A stretch of DNA of 40,284 bases from a virus. This document shows, in pieces, positions 1,598 to 37,999 of the stretch. The position numbers and the translations under genes were made by a program. Position 1 is the stretch's first letter; every line of letters starts with the position of its first letter. The DNA lies in the IMG/VR virus record IMGVR_UViG_3300006737_000065, positions 1 to 40,284 of that record, one strand, 5' to 3'. The notes beneath the pieces are model-generated. The model was not told the origin of the DNA. It did no database searches and worked only from the letters and a program-made list of their open reading frames with translations.

Positions 1598-2050
1598 CTA
1601 GCTATTGATCAGGTCGTCTAGTTCGGTCGTGAAGGCTTCGATCTTACTCATGAGGGTTTCAAGCTTGCGAAGGTGTTTCGCTTTTAGACAGTCCTGTGTT
1701 TCTGGCCAGTAGACGGCTTCCTCCAAAACAGCTTGCGCCCTGTTTAGCATGGAAAAAATCTCGGTCTTTTGTTCGTCGTCTGTTCCTGCTTTAAAGTGAC
1801 TACACGCGGGGGGCGGTGTGTAGGGGCGGACGCGAGACGGATCCCAGACGATCACGCGTGCCGTAGCTAGCGCATCCTCGAGATCGCAAGTGTAGCATAT
1901 CCCCGGGCAGTCCTCCGCCAGATCTCGCGCCGTGTAGACCGGTGGCGCAACTATGTGTTGATCGGTGTATCGGTCGCGCCATACGACTGCGCGGGTGCCT
2001 AGATACTCTTGTCCGGGTACAGCTTGGATCCTTTCAAATTGCGTACTCAT
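1598..2050 (-). CDS. Hypothetical protein, 150 aa
   Basis: Not recognised. The N-terminal part is mixed, with several prolines and three cysteines close together (CPGICYTCD near residue 50), which could hold a metal but make no standard zinc-finger spacing. The C-terminal half is helical and charged (about residues 90-148) and may form a coiled coil. The start is supported by AAGGA nine bases upstream. It is the first gene of the left minus-strand operon. A hairpin at 2070-2097 lies just upstream, in the probable leader. The DNA is GATC-rich like its downstream partner. Confidence 0.6.
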   Translation of the reverse strand: MSTQFERIQAVPGQEYLGTRAVVWRDRYTDQHIVAPPVYTARDLAEDCPGICYTCDLEDALATARVIVWDPSRVRPYTPPPACSHFKAGTDDEQKTEIFSMLNRAQAVLEEAVYWPETQDCLKAKHLRKLETLMSKIEAFTTELDDLINS

Positions 2051-2069
2051 GTTCTTTTGTCCTTCTCGC

Positions 2070-2097
2070 GTGGTGTTGCAGGTTCATCCTACACCAC
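2070..2097 (-). promoter_or_regulatory. Hairpin in the leader of the left operon
   Basis: GTGGTGT then AGG pairs with CCT then ACACCAC, leaving a three-base bulge (TGC) and the loop TTCAT. The stem has ten pairs. It ends about 20 bases before the start codon of the 150-residue gene, and no T-run follows. It could be an operator or an mRNA leader structure rather than a terminator. I found no convincing promoter hexamers beside it. Confidence 0.45.
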
Positions 2098-2200
2098 AAG
2101 CTTCGCATATTCCGTACCCACAGTCAAGGGGGAGATCGCAGATATTCGATCTTTCTTGAAATCGGCCGAAAACCAAGGTTAAAACTGGATAACTGTTCTA

Positions 2201-2243
2201 GGCGTCCCCTAGGGCTAGGGTATAGGGTCGACCCTCGGACGCC
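2201..2243. repeat. Nested palindromes forming a cruciform-capable block
   Basis: Outer arms GGCGTCC (2201-2207) and GGACGCC (2237-2243) enclose the palindromes CCCTAGGG (2207-2214) and AGGGTCGACCCT (2224-2235). There is a perfect 12-base palindrome inside a larger inverted repeat, in gene-free DNA. Such blocks occur at nicking origins, recombination sites and regulator-binding sites. I cannot choose between these from sequence. Confidence 0.6.
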
Positions 2244-2296
2244 TCACAGGGGCACTACAGCGCCAAATAAGGGCATGTCCAGATCTGGAACACCCG

Positions 2297-2340
2297 GCGT
2301 CAAAATATTCGGACGCGTCAAAATATTGGGACACCAATAT
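2297..2340. repeat. 18-bp tandem repeat plus adjoining hairpin
   Basis: GCGTCAAAATATTCGGAC (2297-2314) is followed at once by the same 18 bases with one change (2315-2332). The second copy continues into an inverted repeat, ATATTGG (2323-2329) with loop GACA and CCAATAT (2334-2340). The repeat contains CGTCAA, the same half-site as in the 2421 palindrome and close to the TGTCAA of the left arrays, so it may belong to the same binding system. Confidence 0.6.
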
Positions 2341-2420
2341 CGGGGGGTGAGTCCGGCCAGACCCGGCGCACGACCACACGACCACGCCACGACACGACCC
2401 CTCGTGACGGTGTACCCTTT

Positions 2421-2434
2421 GTTGACGCGTCAAC
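2421..2434. repeat. Fully symmetric palindrome GTTGACGCGTCAAC
   Basis: A perfect 14-base palindrome, differing from the three copies at 416-546 by one base (GC instead of GT in the centre). It lies on the other side of the left minus-strand operon, about 370 bp upstream of its first gene. Related operator-like sites therefore flank that operon on both sides. Confidence 0.65.
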
Positions 2435-2596
2435 CGATAGCTAGGCTGTGTCGAGAGGTGGGCACGTCACGTCAGCCCTTAAGGTGTCACATGAAGTTGT
2501 CTTTCAAACCGCAAAAGCATCCCCGGTTTTCGGTTCGGTTTCTTTATTTCTGGGTTACTGCCTCAACATGACAGCAAATTTGCGTATTTTCGTGTT

Positions 2597-2871
2597 TGTC
2601 TACGGGTGTCTACACTTTAGCCCAACAAGGTGTAGACAAAATAGCGTAGGTTGTTCCTTTGTTTTTCTTAGTGTCTACGGTGTCTACGGTGTCTACACCC
2701 TACATATAAAGCATTACGTCTATTAAAACATACACCCCTACCCCTAGTACCCCTTTATACGCTGGAGAGCTGATAATAGGGAAAAAAGCGTAGACAGTGT
2801 AGACAGCAAACGGTTCTCGGGCTTCTATGGGCGGTTTACCCGTCTACGGCAAAACGTAGACAGCGTAGTCA
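2597..2871. repeat. GTCTAC iteron array, probable replication origin
   Basis: TGTCTAC occurs at 2597, 2607, 2672, 2681 and 2690, and CGTCTAC at 2841. The complement GTAGACA occurs at 2632, 2790, 2799 and 2856, with a degenerate GTAGTCA at 2865. Neighbouring copies are mostly 9 bp apart, so the central three form a tandem GGTGTCTAC 9-mer. Between the two clusters is an A+T-rich and pyrimidine-rich stretch (about 2700-2785) that could melt easily. The array lies directly upstream of a small HTH protein and the primase-helicase, the arrangement of an iteron-controlled origin. The repeats are seen directly; origin function is inferred. The remaining sequence from 2872 to 2952 shows no clear promoter. 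Confidence 0.7.
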
Positions 2872-2952
2872 CTTCTATTTGTCGTCTCTGGCGCGAAAAG
2901 ACGTACTTGCACCCTTCAGTCGCTTGTGTTACTTAAGACCTACGGAGGTGAG

Positions 2953-3177
2953 ATGAATAACGTATCAAATGTGCTTCTTTCTGTGCGCGAAGTCGCGGAG
3001 AGGCTCAAGGTTAGTCCCAGAACAGTGCAGCGGTTGGTCCGCAAGAAAGATTTGCGCGCATATCGCGTTGGCCGTCAACTTAGGATACCGGAGTTGGCCA
3101 TCACAGAGCTTCTCCGCAACACGAAGTTTGACGATGACGAGTTTGAGCAGATTCAAAGCGCCGAATCGCTGTTCTAG
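2953..3177 (+). CDS. Small excisionase/MerR-like helix-turn-helix protein
   Basis: The 74-residue protein is mostly one winged-helix DNA-binding domain of the excisionase type. LLSVREVAERLKVSPRTVQR is the HTH, followed by GxQLRIP, typical of the 'helix-turn-helix domain, excisionase family' proteins, with an acidic tail. ATG at 2953 is preceded by GGAGGT with a short three-base spacer; an in-frame GTG at 2926 lacks such a site and was rejected. It is the first gene after the GTCTAC repeats and lies 8 bp before the primase-helicase. It is therefore a good candidate to bind the repeats, to regulate the operon, or both. True excision activity is unlikely, since no integrase is visible. Confidence 0.8.
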   Translation: MNNVSNVLLSVREVAERLKVSPRTVQRLVRKKDLRAYRVGRQLRIPELAITELLRNTKFDDDEFEQIQSAESLF

Positions 3178-3185
3178 GGGGACAA

Positions 3186-5684
3186 ATGACGATCCAAACG
3201 AGCGAGGCCCGCATCAAGAAGGGCCTTGAAATGATCTTGCGTCCGGGACAGGTAGTTGAGCTTCGCGCTCTAGGCGTTCCCGTGGACAACGGCCTGCGGA
3301 CCATCAGCGGATTCTATGATGACGTCGGCATGTTGGCAGAAGCGGCAGCACATCTCGTCAAAGAAGGGGCTAGAGGTGTCTACTTCACGCCAAACCCCCT
3401 CAGAACCGACATTTCTGCGAATCAGCGCAACAACATTGGGGTCGCGCGCCGTGGTTCTTCCGCCAAAGACACCGATGTGGAAGAGGTTCGCTGGCTTCTG
3501 GTTGACGTTGACCCGTCTCGACCCGTCAACACCTCCAGCAACGCCCGTGAGAAAGAGAACGCCCTCATAGTCATCGGCAAAGTCAGGGCTTTCCTAGAGT
3601 CCCAAGGTTGGCCGGAGCCACTTTTCGGCGACTCGGGCAACGGCTACCACCTGATGTACGAAGTCGAGGGCCTTACACCAGAGCTTCACCGCGAAATCCT
3701 TGAGTACCTCTCGTTCCGCTTTAGCCGAGACGCGCTCGCAGTCGTAGACCAGACCGTATACAACCCTTCGCGCATATGGAAGGTTTATGGCACACTTTCA
3801 CGGAAGGGTGAAAATAGCGAGGAGCGGCCATGGCGCGTTTCGCACCTGATTTCCAAAGATTTGCCAAAAAAAGTAGTACAGCAGCAGCAACTGCAAGAGC
3901 TACTGGCTGATTCTCCTAAGGAGAATAAGCGGGATGTGCTGGCCCCCGAGGACCGCGAGGCGCTTACGACATGGATGGGAACACATTTTCCCTCAGCCGG
4001 AAGTTTTGTTCCTTGGCAAGACAAGGGTCGTAAGTGGGTGTTCGACGTTTGCCCTTGGAATCCCGACCACACCGACCGTAGTGCTTACGTTCTCCAGTTC
4101 AACAGCGGGGCTATTGTCGCTGGGTGCCTGCACAAGAACTGCAAAGGACATCAGAAAGACGAAGATGGCAACGGCACCGGCTGGCAAACGCTGCAAGAGC
4201 TTGCGGGCGAGGAGTTTGGCGGTGGTGGGGACGACGACCATCAAGGAGATTTGTCCCCGTCGTCTTCGGGCAACTTTAACCTTACGGATCTCGGGAACGC
4301 GAAACGTCTGCTCTACGCCTTCGGGACTAGTATACGTTACTCGGCGACTCACAACGCATGGTATCTCTTCGACGACACTAGGTGGCGGGTTGATACTGAC
4401 GGGGCCATCCAACGCTGTGCAAAGTCGGCGGTCGGTTTGATCTTTTCGGAGGCTAGCGCCGAGACCAATCGCCAGAGGCAGCGCGCTATTCAGCGCCACG
4501 CACTTCGCAGTGAAAGTTCCCGCTCGCTTAACGCGATGGTGTCCGTGGCGTCAACTGAAGCAGACGTCTGCATCGCCTCAGACCGCCTAGATGCGGACCC
4601 ATGGCTGTTTAACGTGGCAAACGGAACCCTAGACCTTCGGACAGGGAAGCTCTCTGAACACGACAGGACCGACCTCATTACTAAAATCAGCCCAGTCAAA
4701 TGGGACGTGTCCGCTAAATGCCCCTTGTGGGACGAGTTCATTATGTATGCGATGGAGGAGGATGAGGAAGTCGTCGAGTTCCTCCATCGTTTCTTCGGCT
4801 ATTGCCTTACGGGTCTGGTCACTGAGCAAGTTCTTCTCTTCATGGAGGGGACAGGTGGAAACGGCAAAACAACCGCTTTGCTAGTTTTAATGCACGTTTT
4901 GGGAGACTACGCTATTCAAGGCGCACCGGGCCTATTGATGTCAAAGCACAACGAGTCCCATCCTACGGAGGTCGCTGACCTTCAAGGTGCCCGCTTTGTG
5001 GCTAACGCGGAGGTAGAGAAGGGCAAGCCATTTGCCGAGGCGCTCATCAAGCAGCTTACGGGCAGCGACCCCATCCGAGCGCGGCGGATGCGTCAGGACT
5101 TCTACCAGTTCATGCCCTCCCACAAGCTGTGCATCGCGGCAAACCACCGCCCAATCATTAAGGGCAACGACGAGGGCATCTGGCGGCGTGTGATTCGCAT
5201 CCCTTGGCACCGGAAAGTGTCCTCCGCCAAGAAAGACCCTTTCCTGATTGAGAAGCTCAAGAAGGAAGCACCGGGCATTCTCAACAAGCTCGTCGCAGGC
5301 TGCTTGGCGTGGCAGAAAAAAGGACTGCAGCCCCCTGATAAAGTTAGGCTCGCTACGAACGAGTACCGTGAGGAAATGGACGTTTTGTCCGAGTATATGG
5401 AGGATCGCTGCTCAATCCATTCGGAAGCAACCATCCCCAAAAAACAGCTTTACCTCGACTACGCCGAATGGTGCGAGGACATGAAGCAGCGTCCCCAGAG
5501 CTACTCGCTCTTCTGCCGTCAGCTATCTGAGCGCGACTACAAGTCTACCGTCATTAAGGTCAAGGTTAACGGCCAACGCAAGTCAGCCCGAGTTTGGAAA
5601 GGAATCACTTTGCAGCGTTTTGAGGCTCGACCAGCGTCTCCCGCAGAGCGTATTTCGGAGAAGCTTGGGTGGGGCGAGGCGTAG
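3186..5684 (+). CDS. Primase-helicase (AEP primase plus D5-type SF3 helicase)
   Basis: This 832-residue protein joins two replication activities. The N-terminal third is an archaeo-eukaryotic-type primase: the catalytic acidic pair in LLVDVD (near residue 105) and SGNGYHLMYEV (near 150). A cysteine/histidine segment (CPWNPDH to CLHKNCKG, about 285-325) probably binds zinc. A Gly/Asp/Ser-rich linker (about 345-365) leads to a D5_N/SF3-like helicase with Walker A GGNGKT (near 556) and the sensor segment AANHRP (near 650). It resembles the satellite phage P4 alpha protein in design; that protein primes, unwinds and binds origin iterons. Its place next to the GTCTAC array fits initiation there. 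The start is supported by GGGGGA upstream. Confidence 0.88.
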   Translation: MTIQTSEARIKKGLEMILRPGQVVELRALGVPVDNGLRTISGFYDDVGMLAEAAAHLVKEGARGVYFTPNPLRTDISANQRNNIGVARRGSSAKDTDVEEVRWLLVDVDPSRPVNTSSNAREKENALIVIGKVRAFLESQGWPEPLFGDSGNGYHLMYEVEGLTPELHREILEYLSFRFSRDALAVVDQTVYNPSRIWKVYGTLSRKGENSEERPWRVSHLISKDLPKKVVQQQQLQELLADSPKENKRDVLAPEDREALTTWMGTHFPSAGSFVPWQDKGRKWVFDVCPWNPDHTDRSAYVLQFNSGAIVAGCLHKNCKGHQKDEDGNGTGWQTLQELAGEEFGGGGDDDHQGDLSPSSSGNFNLTDLGNAKRLLYAFGTSIRYSATHNAWYLFDDTRWRVDTDGAIQRCAKSAVGLIFSEASAETNRQRQRAIQRHALRSESSRSLNAMVSVASTEADVCIASDRLDADPWLFNVANGTLDLRTGKLSEHDRTDLITKISPVKWDVSAKCPLWDEFIMYAMEEDEEVVEFLHRFFGYCLTGLVTEQVLLFMEGTGGNGKTTALLVLMHVLGDYAIQGAPGLLMSKHNESHPTEVADLQGARFVANAEVEKGKPFAEALIKQLTGSDPIRARRMRQDFYQFMPSHKLCIAANHRPIIKGNDEGIWRRVIRIPWHRKVSSAKKDPFLIEKLKKEAPGILNKLVAGCLAWQKKGLQPPDKVRLATNEYREEMDVLSEYMEDRCSIHSEATIPKKQLYLDYAEWCEDMKQRPQSYSLFCRQLSERDYKSTVIKVKVNGQRKSARVWKGITLQRFEARPASPAERISEKLGWGEA

Positions 5685-26274: not shown

Positions 26275-29200
26275 ATGGCGGAAGAAACTGTCCCGGAAGT
26301 CCCAGAGGTTCCTGAAGCTCCTGTAGCTCCGCCGGAGCCAGAGCCTTCAAAGCCTAACTTTGAAAGGCCTAGTTACGCCGAGTTTATCAAGTTTACTCCT
26401 GATCAACTTAATAAGTACGTTCAGACCCAAGCGGACAAGGGTAACGCCGCTGCTAAACTGATGCGTCCTACGGTAGAAAAGAAGCCCACTACGGACATGA
26501 GCGCGGATTTACGGTCTCGACTGCCGTCTAACGCTTTGAGGCAAGCCGCCTATACAAAAGGCGCAGGCCTCGTCAGCGAACAAGAGTTGGCTCTTGATAA
26601 CATCCTTTCGACCAACAACATTGAGCCTAACAAGGCGGCTAGACAGGACCGCCTTAACGCAATCGTCGGACAGGCTTTGCGGCAGGAAGAGCACGACAAG
26701 CTCGGGGATAACGAGTTTAAAGCCTTGAACGTGATGTCGATGACTCAACTAGGGCGTGAATACAAAGACCTCGCTGACCTCAAAGAGAACTTCCGGCGTG
26801 ACGCTGAAGCATACAATGCTGACCAGAAAAGGCTTCAAGAAGAAGCTAAGAGCAGAAAGGTAAAATACCGCTCGGTGGGCGTTGTAAACGGTAAACTTGT
26901 CGGCACTGCGAACATGACGGGCACAGGCTTTGACGCCCAGCAGGCAGAGGAGATGAAGCCGTCTGCGGAGCAGGTGCTACATTCAGACACTTCAGACCCC
27001 GAGCTTTATAAGAGCGTTTCACTGGGCCTCACGGCTACGCCCACGTCTACAGAGTTTGCGGAGTTTGCGTTTGACAGCCCTACGGAGCGCAAAAAGTACC
27101 TAAGCAATGCCTATCGCCCGCAAAAAACCGCGCTGGCGATGGATGTCTACAAGCCGATTTACGAAGATCCTACAGGCAAAAACCGAGGCATTAACCTAGA
27201 CATCGCGTATACCTCTGCAAAAGCGCACTATATTAAGCAGCTTACAAACAACAAGCCTTTATCGACCTTCGACGTTTCAGAGAGAGACGAGATCCGAACA
27301 GAGGCCGAAGGGCTTGCCCGTGGCGACATCTCCCGTATTGAGCGAAGCACGCCCTCGTTCGTGTACAGGCGTAACGATGACGCCCTCCAGAACTACCTTG
27401 ACGGAACCGGCATTCTCGGGCCTATCTCGACACTTCCAGTGCTCAAGCCTTTGCTCGCGCCCTTTTTGCCCCACCGTAAGATCGCAGGCACCATCGGCAA
27501 ACGGGGCGAAGAGGCCGAAGAAGTTGCCGAAAAGGGCGTTGTTGCCACTTATATCACTGACGGAGGAGTTGCGAACGCGGCTGACTCTATCTTCAGATAC
27601 GCGCCTACAGAGGCAATCGGGGCCGCGTATCATCTTGCGCACAAAGACTATGTCAGAGAGTTTGGTGATAAAGCCTCGGGACGAGGGACTTGGATTCTAA
27701 AGCGGATGGGGCAAATCTGGAACAGTGACCGTCTTGTCGAGGAGATCGCCACTACCACGGACAATGCAGGCAGACTGCTTACAGAGGCTGGGCCGGTCAT
27801 GCTAGGTGAGTTCGGGGAAGCAAATCCCACAACCGCTGCTGTAATGGTGGGCGTTCCCACGTTCGGCATCATGTTGCTAGAGCCGGATGTTTTTATGGGT
27901 CTGCCCTTTGTAGGAAAGGCAGCGAAAGCTTTAGGCGGCGCAGGCAAGACGGCAAAAGGCCTCGCCCGACTTCGCCACGTTGATCGCCTAGATGACGGTA
28001 AAAACCTTCTGACCAAGGCTGTTGACGGCCTCAGCGCGGAACAGAGGACCAACCCCGTTGACGTAGCCGCTGCCCTTCAGAAGGCCGCAAATGATGATAA
28101 GACAGGCGCGGCACGAGCGATTCTTCAACAGGTCGCCTATGATGCTGGGACGCGGGCCGGAGGTCCAGCGGACAGCCTCGTCAACATCGTAAGAAGAGAA
28201 ACAAGCATCATGAAGAGCGAGGCCAAAAACGCAGTAAAGTCGCGGGCCGACGCCGTCAAAGATATTGAAAAAGCTAAAGACGCAAAAACAGCCGCAGAAG
28301 CCTCGGAATCAGTACACATGGCCGTCCGCAACAGTCTTAACGCTTACGGAAACGACCTTCGGGGGGCGCAGGCGGCACTTAACCGTGCGTCAGCCTTCGC
28401 CAAAAAGGCCCAAAACGATCATATTGCCATGGCCACGTCTCGGGCAATGGTGGATGATGATGCGTTTAGCGCCTACATCAGCTCAGGGAAGGCTAAAAAG
28501 CTAGATCAGTACCTAAGCAGTGACGAGGCCAAGACTTTCTTTAAAGGACGGGATGCCGAAATCAAGGCGTTAAGGGAAGAAATAGCCGAGCTAGGGGTCA
28601 AAAAGTTTGACAAGGTCAAGGAGGCCCGAGCGGCCAAAAAAACCATGCGTCAGAAGATTGCCAAGTTCTACCAAAAAGAGGTTACCAGTCCGCTGTCTCG
28701 CCATCAGGCCCGACTGAAGAAGCGGGCAGACGCGGCGATAGCCAAGCAGACAAAGGCTCAAGCGGCCTTGGATCTTACGGTAAACAACGTCAAGGCCTTG
28801 CTGAAACCTAAAGCCGTAGAGATGCTGACACGCACGCTTAAGGGTGTGGGCGGAAGGGGCGTTGACGCTAAGTTTTTAGCAAAACAACAAGACGAGCTAA
28901 ATGCCCAAATCTTGGAGTTACAGAAAACACAACAAGCCGCAGAGGGAACTATTCGGCGGGCGTCAGAGGAGATTGCGACTGCAGAGGGTATCGCCAAGGT
29001 TGTTGGTGAGGAGGTTCAGTTGGGGCCTAAGGCCTTGATGGCCCAAACGCAGATAGCTGAGGCCATGCTTGACAGCCTCACCAAAGTATCTGCTGCTATT
29101 GACGTGGCCAAGACACGCCGTGGTGGTGAGGAGATTAAGAAGCTTATAGAGGAAGGCCGTGGCGTAGATGAGATCGTCGCAGACACTGCGCGTTTAGACG

Positions 29201-32200
29201 AGATCAGAAAGCTCGCCTCCAATGATTTGGCCGCGCTGTCCAATGAGGACTTCTTAGAGGCGCTAACGAAGGCAGACCTCGCCGAGAGAATGTGGGCGGC
29301 ACCTGCGACAATGAACAAGGTCAAGATAAACCTGTTCACGGACGCTTTTACCCGGCCACGCATGTGGTACGCTGCGACATCAATCCGTGTCAACGATTTA
29401 TTTGCCCGTAAGCTGGGGACGATCTTTAATACAAGGGTCGCGCTCTTAGGCCCCCGATTTGGCAAAGGGGTAGACCGGATTGCGAAGCGAACAGCGCGAT
29501 TTGCCCGAGCCGCCGCACAAGACCTGAGCATCGTCGTAAGGTACGCTCCCGAAGCCGAGCGTAGCAACCTAATCAAACAGTACCTTACAAGCGGAGAGAC
29601 TATACAGCTTCGTCCCGGCATTGAAGTCAGTGGTAACATCGGCATGGGAGCATCGTTCTTCGAGACCGCCAAAGAGGGCTTCCTGAACATCGCCCGAGTT
29701 ATCCCTAAGAACGATAAGGCACGGGAGGAGTTCTTTAAGAACCAACAGTCCGCGTCTCTAGAGGCGTTCGTAAAAGCCTTTGTGTCCGATAACGTCTTGG
29801 GGGCAGAGGCCCTTAAGGCGGGTGAGGCTGTGATGAAGTTTGTCGCAAAGCTCAAAGACGCGCCTGCCGATCTAACCTTAGAGGGGATGCAGAAGTTGGC
29901 GTTTGACGCCGTTAAAGACGCGGGCATGAGAAGGGTGGCTGACACCTTTGAAAACATCCCTGCGAAGGACATGTCCTTGTCGTACAAATCTATTGTAGCA
30001 GGCGCGGTAGAGGAGACGTACACTTCTAGGATGGCCAATCTAGTCGGCGCGGGCCTGAACATCCGCAACATCCGCGCCTACGAAAGATTCATCGGTAGAG
30101 GCAAAGAAATTATCCCTATGCGTCAAACTCTTGAAGTTAAGGACATGGTAGTTCTTAAGGCGGACGTAGAGACTTACCGTACAATCACAAACCGGACTCA
30201 GCAGGCGGCTAAAAAGCGAGGGCCAGTCTCTTCGATGGAGAAGGTTGTGACCGAGGCGCAGCCTAATGCGGTGGCCGCGATGGAGCTGATGGACATCGTA
30301 ACGGTAGACGGAATAACATATGGACGTGTAGTTCTAAACGGCAAGCCGAAAGACATCCCCATCAAGGATTTGACGTTACGGGAACCAGAGCTTTCTTTCC
30401 TAGATGTGGCCGATGCGTACTTGCGCTTTGGTCCAGACCTAGTTCAGCAGGCGTATAAGAAAGACTTGTCGAGCAATATCCGCCAAGCGTCGGACGATTT
30501 TATGGAGTTGGTGGCGCACTCTAAAGACGCCAACGGAAACATGCGGATTGTACCAAGGTTTAAGCTTGAGACGTTCTCTAAAAACTTAGACAATATCTCT
30601 AAAAAACTTACAGAGAACCTGTCTGACGTCGGCGCGGGCAATGTGCTGACACAGAACCTAGCGTCAACAACCCTCAAGATGATAAGTCTGTGGAAGAGGC
30701 ATGTACTTACCGGGCTTTTATCTCCGAATCCCGGATTCTTCGTAAATAACCAAGTAGGCGACTTTTCACAGATGGCAACCGAGTTGAGCATCGGTGATGC
30801 AGCTGTGATTTCTATGTACGGCTCTCTAGGTTACGTTCCGTATCTAGGGACACGGCTTCAAGACGCCACGCGAAAAGCCGCACAAGTCGCTGGGGACGTG
30901 GGTCTTAGACTGCCATCGCTGTTCGACGCGACCTTTAACCGCTTCATCGACGATGTTCTCGAAGGGACCGATGAGGTCAAGGTTTACAAGAAGGCAAATG
31001 GCGAGACTGTAAAAGTAAACCCCGCGAAGCTTATGAACGAGGCCCTAGAAGACGGCATGGACGACAGCATCCGGCACGCCGACTGGGGGACAGAGCTTCG
31101 TGAGGCCGTTGATCGCAACATCGGGCTTGTAGAAAAAGGGCTGAAGTCAACCAACTCGGCCATCAAGACCTTACAAGACGCGAAAGACGAATACTTCGAC
31201 ATCATGGACATCACCATGCGGGCGTCACAGCGAAGGCAGCGTCTTCAGTTCTACGCGCATCTGCGATTTAATAAAGGCATGTCCAGAGACGAGGCTGCCG
31301 ACATGATGTCTAGGGCGCTGTACGATTACCAGACAAGCGTAGGCAAGTTCGAGACAGAGTGGATTGCCCGGATCAGCGCCTTTTACACTTTCTCTAAGAA
31401 CGCGATTGCGCAGAACTTTAATGCCCTGTTTCACGGGTCAGACGACTTGCTTGATTACGCCAAGAGACATGCGAGGTTTAACACCAAACAGCAGCGCATG
31501 GAGGCCATGAGTCGTTTTGCTAACGTGGTTTTCCATGAGCAGTACGTTAGCCCTTCGATGGGAATAGGCGAAGGAGAAGACCCCGCAGGCCTCAGCCCGG
31601 CGGAGCAGCGGAGGATAGCGAGAGAACTAGAGCTTCCTGATTGGCTGATGGATTACATGATCTCCGATGTCGGGACGCTGACCAAAGAGGGTCAGAAGAT
31701 GATGTCAGAGCTAGGCAGGGACCGTGTGAACTACGCGAAGACTGTATCGACACGTCTTACGTCCATCGAGTTCCAAAACATGTATTCCGAGATGATTCAC
31801 CTTGTCTCCGGCGCAGCCGTTGCTGGCCTCCGCAAAGACGTAGACTTCGACACCAGAGAGGGAGCCTCTTTTATACTGAAAGAGCTAGTCAATATGATGA
31901 ACCCTATCGCAGAAAATGTCTTCGAGGACACCTTGCGGAAGCTTACTGGACTTCCAATACCCCCAAAATCAACCTACGGGAAGCCGCTTACAGGGGCAGA
32001 GCTTGAGTTCGCCAAGCTGTTCGGCATGACCAACTCTCTTGGTTTGACCGAAACAAACGGCAAAATCAGGTCTAACGACAACCTCATAAAGACCGGCATG
32101 TTGGACATGGCGGGACGCGAAGTGAACCGTTTCCGCCTTATGGCCTCCGTCATATTTGGTACGGATCTAGGCGCATTAACGCCTATCGAGACCCGCGCAT

Positions 32201-32382
32201 ATCTTGCAGGGATGGATAAATCCGAAGTACAAAAGAGACTAACTGTATTGAGTCAGTTAATGAACGTACAGAAAGTTTATCTTTTACACGGCGATCAGAC
32301 TAAAAGCTTCAAAGTCAAATCCGACAAAAGAGAAGTCGGTCGGAAATACAAAAAAGCAGGCAAAGAAGGTATGGTGGAATAA
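26275..32382 (+). CDS. Giant virion protein (2,035 aa), putative ejected protein
   Basis: The largest gene in the window takes 15% of it. The N-terminal 30 residues are Pro/Glu-rich. Helical regions follow. A hydrophobic stretch near residues 520-560 (VPTFGIMLLEPDVFMGLPF) could enter a membrane. Long coiled coils lie at about 640-960. The C-terminal third contains FYTFSKNAIAQNF, recalling the FYTW(T/S)(R/K)N motif of large virion proteins. I found no lysozyme or transglycosylase signature. Short-tailed phages eject such giant proteins to build a channel for DNA entry; that role is inferred. Its stop overlaps the next start (TAATG). Confidence 0.7.
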   Translation: MAEETVPEVPEVPEAPVAPPEPEPSKPNFERPSYAEFIKFTPDQLNKYVQTQADKGNAAAKLMRPTVEKKPTTDMSADLRSRLPSNALRQAAYTKGAGLVSEQELALDNILSTNNIEPNKAARQDRLNAIVGQALRQEEHDKLGDNEFKALNVMSMTQLGREYKDLADLKENFRRDAEAYNADQKRLQEEAKSRKVKYRSVGVVNGKLVGTANMTGTGFDAQQAEEMKPSAEQVLHSDTSDPELYKSVSLGLTATPTSTEFAEFAFDSPTERKKYLSNAYRPQKTALAMDVYKPIYEDPTGKNRGINLDIAYTSAKAHYIKQLTNNKPLSTFDVSERDEIRTEAEGLARGDISRIERSTPSFVYRRNDDALQNYLDGTGILGPISTLPVLKPLLAPFLPHRKIAGTIGKRGEEAEEVAEKGVVATYITDGGVANAADSIFRYAPTEAIGAAYHLAHKDYVREFGDKASGRGTWILKRMGQIWNSDRLVEEIATTTDNAGRLLTEAGPVMLGEFGEANPTTAAVMVGVPTFGIMLLEPDVFMGLPFVGKAAKALGGAGKTAKGLARLRHVDRLDDGKNLLTKAVDGLSAEQRTNPVDVAAALQKAANDDKTGAARAILQQVAYDAGTRAGGPADSLVNIVRRETSIMKSEAKNAVKSRADAVKDIEKAKDAKTAAEASESVHMAVRNSLNAYGNDLRGAQAALNRASAFAKKAQNDHIAMATSRAMVDDDAFSAYISSGKAKKLDQYLSSDEAKTFFKGRDAEIKALREEIAELGVKKFDKVKEARAAKKTMRQKIAKFYQKEVTSPLSRHQARLKKRADAAIAKQTKAQAALDLTVNNVKALLKPKAVEMLTRTLKGVGGRGVDAKFLAKQQDELNAQILELQKTQQAAEGTIRRASEEIATAEGIAKVVGEEVQLGPKALMAQTQIAEAMLDSLTKVSAAIDVAKTRRGGEEIKKLIEEGRGVDEIVADTARLDEIRKLASNDLAALSNEDFLEALTKADLAERMWAAPATMNKVKINLFTDAFTRPRMWYAATSIRVNDLFARKLGTIFNTRVALLGPRFGKGVDRIAKRTARFARAAAQDLSIVVRYAPEAERSNLIKQYLTSGETIQLRPGIEVSGNIGMGASFFETAKEGFLNIARVIPKNDKAREEFFKNQQSASLEAFVKAFVSDNVLGAEALKAGEAVMKFVAKLKDAPADLTLEGMQKLAFDAVKDAGMRRVADTFENIPAKDMSLSYKSIVAGAVEETYTSRMANLVGAGLNIRNIRAYERFIGRGKEIIPMRQTLEVKDMVVLKADVETYRTITNRTQQAAKKRGPVSSMEKVVTEAQPNAVAAMELMDIVTVDGITYGRVVLNGKPKDIPIKDLTLREPELSFLDVADAYLRFGPDLVQQAYKKDLSSNIRQASDDFMELVAHSKDANGNMRIVPRFKLETFSKNLDNISKKLTENLSDVGAGNVLTQNLASTTLKMISLWKRHVLTGLLSPNPGFFVNNQVGDFSQMATELSIGDAAVISMYGSLGYVPYLGTRLQDATRKAAQVAGDVGLRLPSLFDATFNRFIDDVLEGTDEVKVYKKANGETVKVNPAKLMNEALEDGMDDSIRHADWGTELREAVDRNIGLVEKGLKSTNSAIKTLQDAKDEYFDIMDITMRASQRRQRLQFYAHLRFNKGMSRDEAADMMSRALYDYQTSVGKFETEWIARISAFYTFSKNAIAQNFNALFHGSDDLLDYAKRHARFNTKQQRMEAMSRFANVVFHEQYVSPSMGIGEGEDPAGLSPAEQRRIARELELPDWLMDYMISDVGTLTKEGQKMMSELGRDRVNYAKTVSTRLTSIEFQNMYSEMIHLVSGAAVAGLRKDVDFDTREGASFILKELVNMMNPIAENVFEDTLRKLTGLPIPPKSTYGKPLTGAELEFAKLFGMTNSLGLTETNGKIRSNDNLIKTGMLDMAGREVNRFRLMASVIFGTDLGALTPIETRAYLAGMDKSEVQKRLTVLSQLMNVQKVYLLHGDQTKSFKVKSDKREVGRKYKKAGKEGMVE

Positions 32383-35899: not shown

Positions 35900-36268
35900 A
35901 TGGCTCAGATTCAACCCCTTCTAGGCCCGATCGGTGGTCAGGTGTATACCGCCACCATCTCCAACGCCAGCGCCGTCAACAACCCACTGGCGGATACGGC
36001 AGTTACTGTGTATCAAATCGAGCTAGACAACACAGCCAACTCTGCGGCAACGTACCTCAAGGTCTATAACGCGGCGTCTCCAGCACACGCGAGCAACGCC
36101 CCGTTCTATATCCTGCGGGCCGAAGCGGCTACGAAGCAGCATGTCATCTTCCCTGCGGGAACTGAGTTCGGCTACCTGTCCTACATTGTTACGACGACAC
36201 AACTTAACACAGGCACACCTAGCGCAACCAGCAGCGCCGTAGAGGTAGCTTGTCTGTACAGTCCCTAG
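35900..36268 (+). CDS. Small beta-sandwich protein, second of a tandem pair
   Basis: The 122-residue paralogue of the previous gene product ends the plus-strand run. GAGGT lies five bases before ATG. Its TAG overlaps the TAG of the opposing endolysin gene within CTAG, leaving no room for a terminator between the two operons. A structural role is inferred. Confidence 0.6.
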   Translation: MAQIQPLLGPIGGQVYTATISNASAVNNPLADTAVTVYQIELDNTANSAATYLKVYNAASPAHASNAPFYILRAEAATKQHVIFPAGTEFGYLSYIVTTTQLNTGTPSATSSAVEVACLYSP

Positions 36269-36837
36269 CCTCGTAGTCTGACGGAGAAGAACTCAGCATC
36301 CCCAAGGATGTCAGTCTCCGTCCCTGACCAGATAGAAGGCAGAATGTTAATGGCAGGGCCGATGTCCCGCCAGACCACGCCGTCTTCGTTGAGGCGCAGG
36401 TTTGCTTCCAGCACAAGCAGATTCTGCCCACGCTTCAAAGCGATGAACGAGTGCCCGCGTTTCCATCGCTCGTCCCACTTCTGATAAAGATACCAGCCGT
36501 TGCCGGTGCCTTTGGTGGTGAGGCCCATGTCTGCCGCCGTAGTCAGCGGTCCCCACAAGTCTTCGCGGCTCCACATCTGCCACTGCTTGTACCGGGTGAA
36601 GCTCCAGCCCGCCTTTGGGTATACTTGGGCGAGCAAGCCATAGGTAAAGGAAGAACAGTCAATCTCTCTTGTACCGCTGCGAATCAGCGTGCTCGGAACG
36701 CCGGGGATGTCTGGCGGGTAGTCCACCTTGTGTCCGTAGGTGTAGCCCTCCCAAACAGGAAGGCAGGAAAGGATGCGGTCTCGGAGGCGCGGGTTGCCGA
36801 CCTCAGAAGGATACAAACCAATAGTACATTCGTCCAT
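36265..36837 (-). CDS. NlpC/P60-like endolysin (putative)
   Basis: The 190-residue protein has an NlpC/P60 papain-like catalytic pattern: IDCSSF (C61 nucleophile), GHSFIAL (H129) and LVLEAN (about residues 142-146, polar third residue). Such enzymes cut the stem peptide of peptidoglycan. The true start at 36837 forms TGATG with the preceding ATPase stop; a longer in-frame start was rejected because it would lie inside that gene. There is no signal peptide, so it needs a holin or a route across the membrane. It lies with replication genes rather than with structural genes, so its timing may differ from late lysis. Confidence 0.72.
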   Translation of the reverse strand: MDECTIGLYPSEVGNPRLRDRILSCLPVWEGYTYGHKVDYPPDIPGVPSTLIRSGTREIDCSSFTYGLLAQVYPKAGWSFTRYKQWQMWSREDLWGPLTTAADMGLTTKGTGNGWYLYQKWDERWKRGHSFIALKRGQNLLVLEANLRLNEDGVVWRDIGPAINILPSIWSGTETDILGDAEFFSVRLRG

Positions 36838-37823
36838 CACACCCTCACCAAGTCCCACCCAAGGGACATAAAATCGTAGTCTTCTGGTAACACAGTGGTC
36901 TGCACGAAGACACCTGCACACAACATGTTCCTGAGAGAGCGCATAAGCCACCCTAGAGTCCTCGGGTCATACGCCCGGTCAGGCAGGATGAAAAGGGCGC
37001 GCGGGCCGTTGAGAAGGGCACCAGCGAGCGCGACAGCGAGCGCCACGGTTTCTACGCCAGATGGTATGACAACGTCCCCGTTGATGGAGAGGCGAATCTT
37101 ACCCCCAAGCTCGACGAACTCGGCCCTACCAATCTCTTCCGGCAGGTAGCGGTTGATGCCCGTCTCGACCACGTCGAAAGACCCCTTCACAAAGATGAGG
37201 GCCTCCTTGTCAATCTTGGCCTTCAACTGCTTTGACTTCAGAATCTGTGTTTCAAGAGAATCCTTTTCATTGTCCACGAAGTAGGACTCAAGGCCATTGT
37301 CCTCGACGTACTCTTGGATGACGGCTAGCTCGCGCATCCGCTTCTGATGGCTGCGTATAGACGCGCCAACCGACTTCATCATCTCAAGCAGGGCCTTGCG
37401 GTACGAACCGTGGTGCTTGACACGGGCGTCCCAGCCCGGGATGTCGAGGGCGATGGGGTGATCGTCATCGTCGATGTTTGTTAGAAGGAACTCTACTAAA
37501 GCGTCGTGACTTCCCGTAAGCGCGCGCATCGCCATCGCGACCACGTTGTCAAACTTCTTGCTGCGGTCGCCCCAACTAACCTCTTCCCCATCAACAGTAA
37601 GATGGCAGAACAAGCCATCGCCTCGTGGAGCGAGCGCCTCCAAAGCGCCCTTTGTCTTGACGTCCTTGCCTGCCGCATCGTAGGCTGTGTCGAACGCGCC
37701 AAGCTCAATCGAGTGGATAACTGCGCTCTTTCCCGAACCATTGCGTCCGAAGATAAGGTTGTACGGTGATGCGAGTTGCAGGTCGATTGGACCCTTCACA
37801 TTAGAATAGATTCCCTCAATCAT
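36837..37823 (-). CDS. Compact SMC/RecF-like ATPase
   Basis: The 328-residue protein has a clear Walker A, GRNGSGKS (residues 26-33), and a coiled-coil-like middle (about 140-205). Near the C-terminus lies a degenerate ABC signature (IPSGVETVALAVALAGAL in place of LSGGE), followed by LFILPDR in the Walker B position, without the usual DE. RecF, SMC and gp46-type ATPases act in DNA repair, end processing or origin handling; the short arm makes it a minimal relative. The missing DE could mean weak or no hydrolysis. It starts by ATGA overlap with the zinc-ribbon gene. Confidence 0.75.
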   Translation of the reverse strand: MIEGIYSNVKGPIDLQLASPYNLIFGRNGSGKSAVIHSIELGAFDTAYDAAGKDVKTKGALEALAPRGDGLFCHLTVDGEEVSWGDRSKKFDNVVAMAMRALTGSHDALVEFLLTNIDDDDHPIALDIPGWDARVKHHGSYRKALLEMMKSVGASIRSHQKRMRELAVIQEYVEDNGLESYFVDNEKDSLETQILKSKQLKAKIDKEALIFVKGSFDVVETGINRYLPEEIGRAEFVELGGKIRLSINGDVVIPSGVETVALAVALAGALLNGPRALFILPDRAYDPRTLGWLMRSLRNMLCAGVFVQTTVLPEDYDFMSLGWDLVRV

Positions 37824-37999
37824 TTTTTCTCCCTCATCTCGTGAGGCCATATCCAGCCTCCGTGGTTATTTTTGCATCGCCACCCACCCTGCGGGCCAGC
37901 GTCTACGACAATATCTTCAACGCCACCAGCCCAAAGCCGAGGCTCTTTGCACTTCGGGCAACGGCTTCCCTTCTGCTCCCAAACTAAATCCTTCGCCAC
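37820..37999 (-). CDS. Zinc-ribbon protein, 59 aa
   Basis: This short gene is supported by its product and by coupling. It has RCPKC, then 25 residues later RCKNNHGGW, a likely zinc site (C,C,C,H). The GTG start is preceded by AGGGAG, and its TGA overlaps the ATPase start as ATGA. It overlaps the end of the winged-helix gene by 16 bp in another frame. The Trp content is high. It may recruit the ATPase to DNA or RNA; the family is not named. Confidence 0.7.
   Translation of the reverse strand: MAKDLVWEQKGSRCPKCKEPRLWAGGVEDIVVDAGPQGGWRCKNNHGGWIWPHEMREKK

Follow-up and report, generated by a model that had tools for sequence, protein, structure and literature searches.

Introduction

The alpha protein of P4 is a primase-helicase whose C-terminal winged-helix origin-binding domain recognises iterons. 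The structure of this domain is cited in a study of another D5-type protein, whose similar tail domain was likened to both the P4 alpha origin-binding domain and Rfx1 (PMC10516667). A PICI origin lies 3' of the initiator gene and has an AT-rich region with one set of iterons on each side; the PICI pri-rep-ori drives plasmid replication, and the layout was called unique to PICIs in 2018 (PMC6092414). SaPI Rep and Cch2 (D5_N family) bind origin iterons via their C-terminal domain, with two hexamers being proposed (PMC7581432). We have analysed a putative origin related to these systems in an uncultured phage, IMG/VR record IMGVR_UViG_3300006737_000065, a viral stretch of 40,284 bases referred to here as the window. 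The features concerned are the following:

2597..2613, plus strand: left outer iterons, TGTCTAC at 2597-2603 and 2607-2613 (three copies in L008, L009, L011 and L022)
2632..2638, minus strand: left single iteron in opposite orientation (same place in L005, L008-L012, L022, L007, L014 and L121)
2672..2696, plus strand: left inner iterons, TGTCTAC at 2672, 2681 and 2690, 9 bp apart
2700..2759: low-stability centre, candidate melting site
2767..2787: conserved box GAGCTGATAATAGGGAAAAAA, directly before the right inner iterons and unchanged when the iterons change
2790..2805, minus strand: right inner iterons at 2790 and 2799, 9 bp apart and inverted relative to the left inner ones
2842..2847, plus strand: right single iteron core GTCTAC (CGTCTAC) in opposite orientation (full TGTCTAC here in L004, L005, L009 and L011)
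2856..2871, minus strand: right outer iterons, exact at 2856 and with one mismatch at 2865 (GTAGTCA)
2953..3177, plus strand: HTH_17 protein of 74 aa, excisionase-like and possibly a regulator (Pfam HTH_17, E 4.7e-15; PHROG excisionase/HTH)
3186..5684, plus strand: primase-helicase of 832 aa with a prim-pol-like N-terminus, D5_N at 372-519 and DUF5906 at 554-668
5412..5612, plus strand: C-terminal winged helix of the primase-helicase (aa 743-809), proposed iteron reader, with recognition helix ~770-784 and wing 785-806

The locus resembles the SaPI/PICI systems in having a D5/SF3-type initiator with a C-terminal DNA-binding domain and two iteron sets flanking a low-stability region, and also in that related elements differ in iteron sequence (PMC6092414, PMC7581432). 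It departs from them in the position of the putative origin, 5' of the HTH-primase operon instead of directly 3' of the initiator gene, in the extra outer clusters and opposite single sites of its array, and in a phage that encodes its own DNA polymerase A. The likeness to P4 alpha lies in a primase-helicase with a C-terminal winged helix and in the TGTCTAC arrays that P4-like satellites also carry; the P4-alpha-type protein of these satellites, however, has Zn-ribbon and Toprim primase domains where the window enzyme has its prim-pol-like N-terminus, and their arrays stand after the gene, not before it. Cch2, from SCCmec, shares the D5_N-type helicase and an isolated C-terminal domain that binds origin repeats (AAGTG), but it has no fused primase and just three iterons, located downstream of the operon (PMC7581432). 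Finally, the D5 helicase part of phi105 is homologous (39% identity), and a very AT-rich centre there lies between inverted TGTTACT/AGTAACA pairs, whereas the phi105 array follows the primase gene and the N-terminal region of the enzyme is another one.

Gene setting

Virion genes are present in the window (terminase-like, with a weak Pfam match below the cut-off, portal-like and major head protein), as are the genes for DNA polymerase A and the primase-helicase; the record does not correspond to a PICI satellite, which is phage-dependent and without a full virion gene set. Genes run leftward before the array (555-1571 and 1598-2050) and rightward after it. Among the cultured phage records searched there was no DNA match to the array region, and the best protein matches stayed below 60% identity, so that the phage has no close relative in that set. 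The ends of the contig share neither a terminal repeat nor a reading frame that would indicate circular closure. Cumulative GC skew, put forward in the original prediction as a check on the origin, was uninformative, since genome-wide it tracks the coding strand and gives no independent origin signal. Two further genes were recorded: one for a 2035-aa protein in the virion gene region (26275-32382), with no PHROG match, and one for a RecF/SbcC-like ATPase (36837-37850, minus strand), the last 115 bases of which are shared with the beginning of the following reading frame (36265-36951).

Composition and geometry of the iteron array

The window contains 15 copies of TGTCTAC against 3.3 expected, nine of them within the 266 bp from 2597 to 2862, where 0.02 would be expected (Poisson, P(>=9) ~3e-21); in the 700-bp upstream region, nine non-overlapping copies compare with a maximum of four in 200 dinucleotide shuffles. 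Five exact copies are forward (2597, 2607, 2672, 2681, 2690) and four reverse (2632, 2790, 2799, 2856), and the near-matches CGTCTAC (forward) and GTAGTCA (reverse, 2865-2871) bring the total to 11 sites, 6 forward and 5 reverse. The original prediction had listed six forward and four inverted 7-mers, mostly 9 bp apart: the forward count stands, the inverted one rises to five with the near-match, and the 9-bp step applies only to the tight clusters (2672/2681/2690, 2790/2799, 2856/2865), the remaining steps ranging from 10 to 100 bp. Its description of 275 bp without a gene was borne out, the reading frames that cross the array (2448-2726 and 1942-2571) being mechanical, as was that of an HTH gene and a primase-helicase gene following it, confirmed by the HTH_17 and D5 domain matches; the array ends ~315 bp before the start of the primase gene. 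The easily melted middle is equally real: just three 60-bp stretches of the window are less stable than 2700-2759 (rank fraction 0.001, i.e. the top 0.1%), where the GC content is 0.40-0.45 against ~0.54 genome-wide.

An arrangement absent from that account is the inversion of the site clusters about the ~93-bp centre that they flank, at offsets of -143, -133, -109, -68, -59, -50, +49, +58, +101, +115 and ~+124 bp. The inner inverted sites lie ~50 bp to each side of the centre in the 14 loci compared. Full mirror symmetry in the window is weakly above chance (6/300 and 22/300 in two nulls) and is class-dependent, being broken for the outer clusters in L015, L131 and L116.

Conserved place and replaced repeat in related phages

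Our primase scan gave 23 loci, a set widened by later alignment scans, and the comparison was mostly within IMG/VR; with the patterns used, no primase relative was found in prokaryote species genomes. Nine loci whose primases are 71-100% identical have TGTCTAC arrays equally far before the primase gene. The proposed search for the same 9-mer beside homologous primases was thus successful in these nine relatives, but not in L007, whose primase is as close as theirs, nor in more distant loci, where the place is kept and the repeat has changed. Relative to the primase, the arrays lie mostly at ~-620 to -310, with these repeats:

L007: TTTCTACG, array place kept
L013: TTACTACG, array place kept
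L193, L217: TGACTACA, ~100 bp further out
L014: GGTTACAA, array place kept
L015, L023: GGTTACA, array place kept
L016, L021, L118: TGTAGACGA, array place kept
L121: TGTAACA, array place kept
L131: TTTGTAGTT, array place kept
L116, L125: TTTGTGGY, array place kept
L206: GGTAGCA, array place kept
L126: ATTGTCC, class weaker or at other distance
L196: AAGTGAAC, class weaker or at other distance
L128, L133: AGGTTACAA, further out (L133: class weaker or at other distance)

Most repeat classes were never equalled in shuffle tests (0/200); the single 7-mer was weaker for L021 and L116 (3/200 each), whose sites are fewer or variable at one base. For L013, a neighbouring CTTGACA cluster and not the iteron repeat supplied the top 7-mer. 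On a tree built from the primases minus their last 132 residues, the 13 repeat classes require at least 12 changes, L007 (TTTCTACG) being nested inside the TGTCTACG clade. L007, L121 and L206, whose repeat has switched, have their TGTCTAC copies dispersed over the genome, whereas in the genomes of L009, L010 and L012 the copies cluster at the array. The unit orientation varies between motif classes; a single core GTAR common to all of them, a post hoc pattern with inconsistent unit orientation, is not claimed here. What stays is the neighbouring box, near-identical in L007, L009, L011, L013, L014, L016, L021, L193 and L217; as GAGCTTATAATAGGGAAAAAA beside the right inner sites, it is constant through several repeat switches. 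A consensus scan detected no sigma-70 promoter-like site at the box or anywhere across 2050-3200. The relatives respell the repeat in at least 12 ways at a fixed layout, as if lock and key had changed together.

The new part of these findings is the family-wide series, i.e. one layout, many repeats and a plausible reader domain changing alongside, the type of origin itself being known. The array keeping its place while its repeat switches, together with the RFX-like winged helix of the primase described below, makes this very probably a SaPI/PICI-type origin, as judged from sequence comparison. We accordingly favour the reading that 2597-2871 is the replication origin of the phage and would be read by its own primase-helicase, to which we assign a probability of about 0.75; the likely origin beside a P4-alpha-like enzyme of the original prediction thereby remains the best-supported reading, backed now by the arrays of the relatives.

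Candidate readers of the iterons

The primase-helicase matches Pfam D5_N (E 8.3e-30) and DUF5906 (E 1.9e-9), with Pox_D5 barely below the cut-off, and the PHROG DNA primase family (E 3e-117), and so carries the D5_N and SF3 helicase domains of the D5/SF3 initiators of PICI and P4 type. A fused primase is indicated by the model of the N-terminal domain, which matches RepB' primase (E 1.1e-4) and Prim-PolC. Its sequence relatives in the PDB are ASFV C962R and 7ola, a 'DNA primase' related to the helicase part. The full-length model was not confident in the helicase core, and only the N- and C-terminal domains were used. The AlphaFold2 model of the C-terminal domain (pLDDT 81.5) has a predicted winged-helix fold whose best PDB matches are RFX5 (E 2.6e-4) and hRFX1 (E 3.6e-4); the P4 alpha origin-binding domain was absent from the fold matches listed, and a profile of the primase C-terminus found no match at E < 0.001 in the other array-bearing contigs.

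The recognition helix of this domain occurs in two main types that go with two repeat groups and is nearly constant within each, the wing varying between classes: YSLF[CS]RQLSERD with a long wing accompanies CTAC-type repeats, including TGACTACA with helix YNLFCRQLSERD, and NYRLFNRQ[LM]KER with a short wing accompanies the TGTAAC, TGTAGAC, TTGTAG, TTGTGG and GGTAGCA types. Since hRFX1 contacts the DNA major groove mainly by its wing and the neighbouring strands (PMC8998557), a similar mode of reading would account for a wing that changes while the helix stays constant. Two contrasts most clearly suggest the primase as reader. Between L131 and L116, whose repeats differ slightly, the HTH_17 protein is almost the same (11% different) and the primase recognition helix identical, the wing differing at 13 of 22 positions; and of the positions constant in the primases of the TGTCTAC clade, those changed in L007 are 3 of 14 in the wing against 16 of 458 (p=0.015, post hoc).

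The main competitor is the HTH_17 protein. The iterons would then be bound by this protein and the array would be its binding region, the protein being either a repressor of the operon or the actual initiator, which brings in the primase-helicase. Its gene lies between array and primase in most relatives, and its divergence correlates with that of the iterons: the partial correlation with iteron distance was 0.53 for HTH_17, 0.56 for the wing and 0.67 for the primase N-terminus, and a partial Mantel test did not discriminate primase from HTH_17. Such pairwise-distance statistics cannot separate the candidates because everything follows phylogeny, and the case for the primase therefore rests on the single contrasts and on precedent, i.e. 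the published finding that SaPI Rep and Cch2 bind by their C-terminal domain (PMC7581432). Several observations nonetheless make a role of HTH_17 as reader unlikely. Its recognition helix RTVQR is unchanged over most iteron classes, and it is a different one (YHYAYVRQL) in L193 and L217, which keep the array and have a repeat, TGACTACA, close to TGTCTAC. Neither does HTH_17 go wherever the array goes, as L196 has an array and a gene before the primase without an HTH domain, and in phi105, Angelica and a Listeria phage the array stands after the primase gene, no HTH_17 being annotated next to it. Some 11 sites over 275 bp would also be large for an operator. On the choice between enzyme and HTH protein, which had been left open, the balance of evidence favours the primase, through its C-terminal winged helix, as the likely reader, HTH_17 being the weaker candidate.

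Proposed mechanism and remaining alternatives

If the primase-helicase reads the array, copies of it would be anchored to the iterons through their C-terminal winged helices, and the inversion of the clusters about the weak centre would let two helicase hexamers assemble face to face, melt the centre and start two forks, whose strands would be copied by the primase domain of the enzyme and the DNA polymerase A of the phage. C-terminal binding, double-hexamer loading and a bidirectional start are here carried over from relatives of the enzyme. In evolution, iteron sequence and wing would change together as spacing, centre and neighbouring box stay.

A cis site for partition, packaging or early transcription control, beside the replication genes by coincidence, is an unlikely reading, less probable than either of those above. 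Divergent promoters could indeed lie at the array, with leftward genes (555-2050) before it and rightward genes after it, but the scan for the sigma-70 consensus found none there, no partition gene was seen beside the array, the terminase-like gene is 5 kb away, and arrays of this kind accompany D5-type primases, before or after the gene, in phages and satellites that are unrelated. A functionless product of chance or of tandem-repeat mutation, for which the 9-bp steps might speak, is refuted by the comparative data, namely two orientations, fixed non-tandem spacing, a place conserved in diverged phages and wholesale repeat replacement.

Under the preferred reading, as an origin served by the primase-helicase, the SaPI/PICI type of origin is now placed in tailed phages, cultured ones included, and among the relatives nature has supplied about a dozen iteron sequences together with the initiator domains that match them, a series in which a joint specificity change of the initiator and some ten sites, and an RFX-like wing setting origin specificity, become testable. 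A further-reaching proposal, which we advance tentatively and hold to be somewhat likelier wrong than right, is that the whole iteron sequence, some ten sites each time, has switched at least 12 times at fixed geometry and box, is read by the RFX-like wing and not by the recognition helix, and has a diversity that acts as incompatibility groups. If true, such groups would stop relatives or satellites that infect the same cell from borrowing the initiator or titrating it.

Arrays in other phages and satellites

Phage phi105 has TGTTACT pairs, an AT-rich centre and AGTAACA pairs, Angelica has AGCACAGAT repeats and the Listeria phage has CAGGGCA repeats, in each case in the gap that follows the D5 primase gene on its 3' side. 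The putative origins would lie at 3944-4211 (L251, phi105), 3857-4252 (L252, Angelica) and 3848-4181 (L254, Listeria phage FHC15313-PLM26), where no feature is annotated.

Directly after the alpha gene, TGTCTAC arrays were found in the P4-like satellites L036, L044, L055, L081 and L094; the apparent P4-like satellites with such arrays are L036, L037, L044, L045, L054, L055, L081, L084, L085 and L094. The C-terminal domain of their P4-alpha-type primase looks unlike that of the window in sequence, which suggests that the recognition of TGTCTAC may fall to different domains. TGTCTAC arrays also occur in three other genomes, which carry D5-type helicase genes elsewhere. Not all matches of the pattern scans were of this nature: many single-pair matches of the 17-bp pattern are chance (two copies only), and those of L069 and L071 are simple tandem repeats of 9 bp that lie within reading frames.

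Phage contigs of 35-53 kb with two separate TGTCTAC arrays 22-30 kb apart were also observed (L083/L091 in G012, L068/L070 in G009 and L074 in G010), with 12+12 and 11+11 sites in two of them and 12+5 in the third, and with array units oriented opposite to those of the window; possibly, these genomes have two origins each.

The window itself has a second repeat system at 261-573 and 2421-2434, consisting of four copies of the palindrome GTTGACNNGTCAAC (416, 460, 533 and 2421; 0.13 expected with up to one mismatch) and of TGTCAAG/CTTGACA direct repeats ~11 bp apart. L105 has CTTGACA clusters as well, and in L113 they immediately precede the iteron array.
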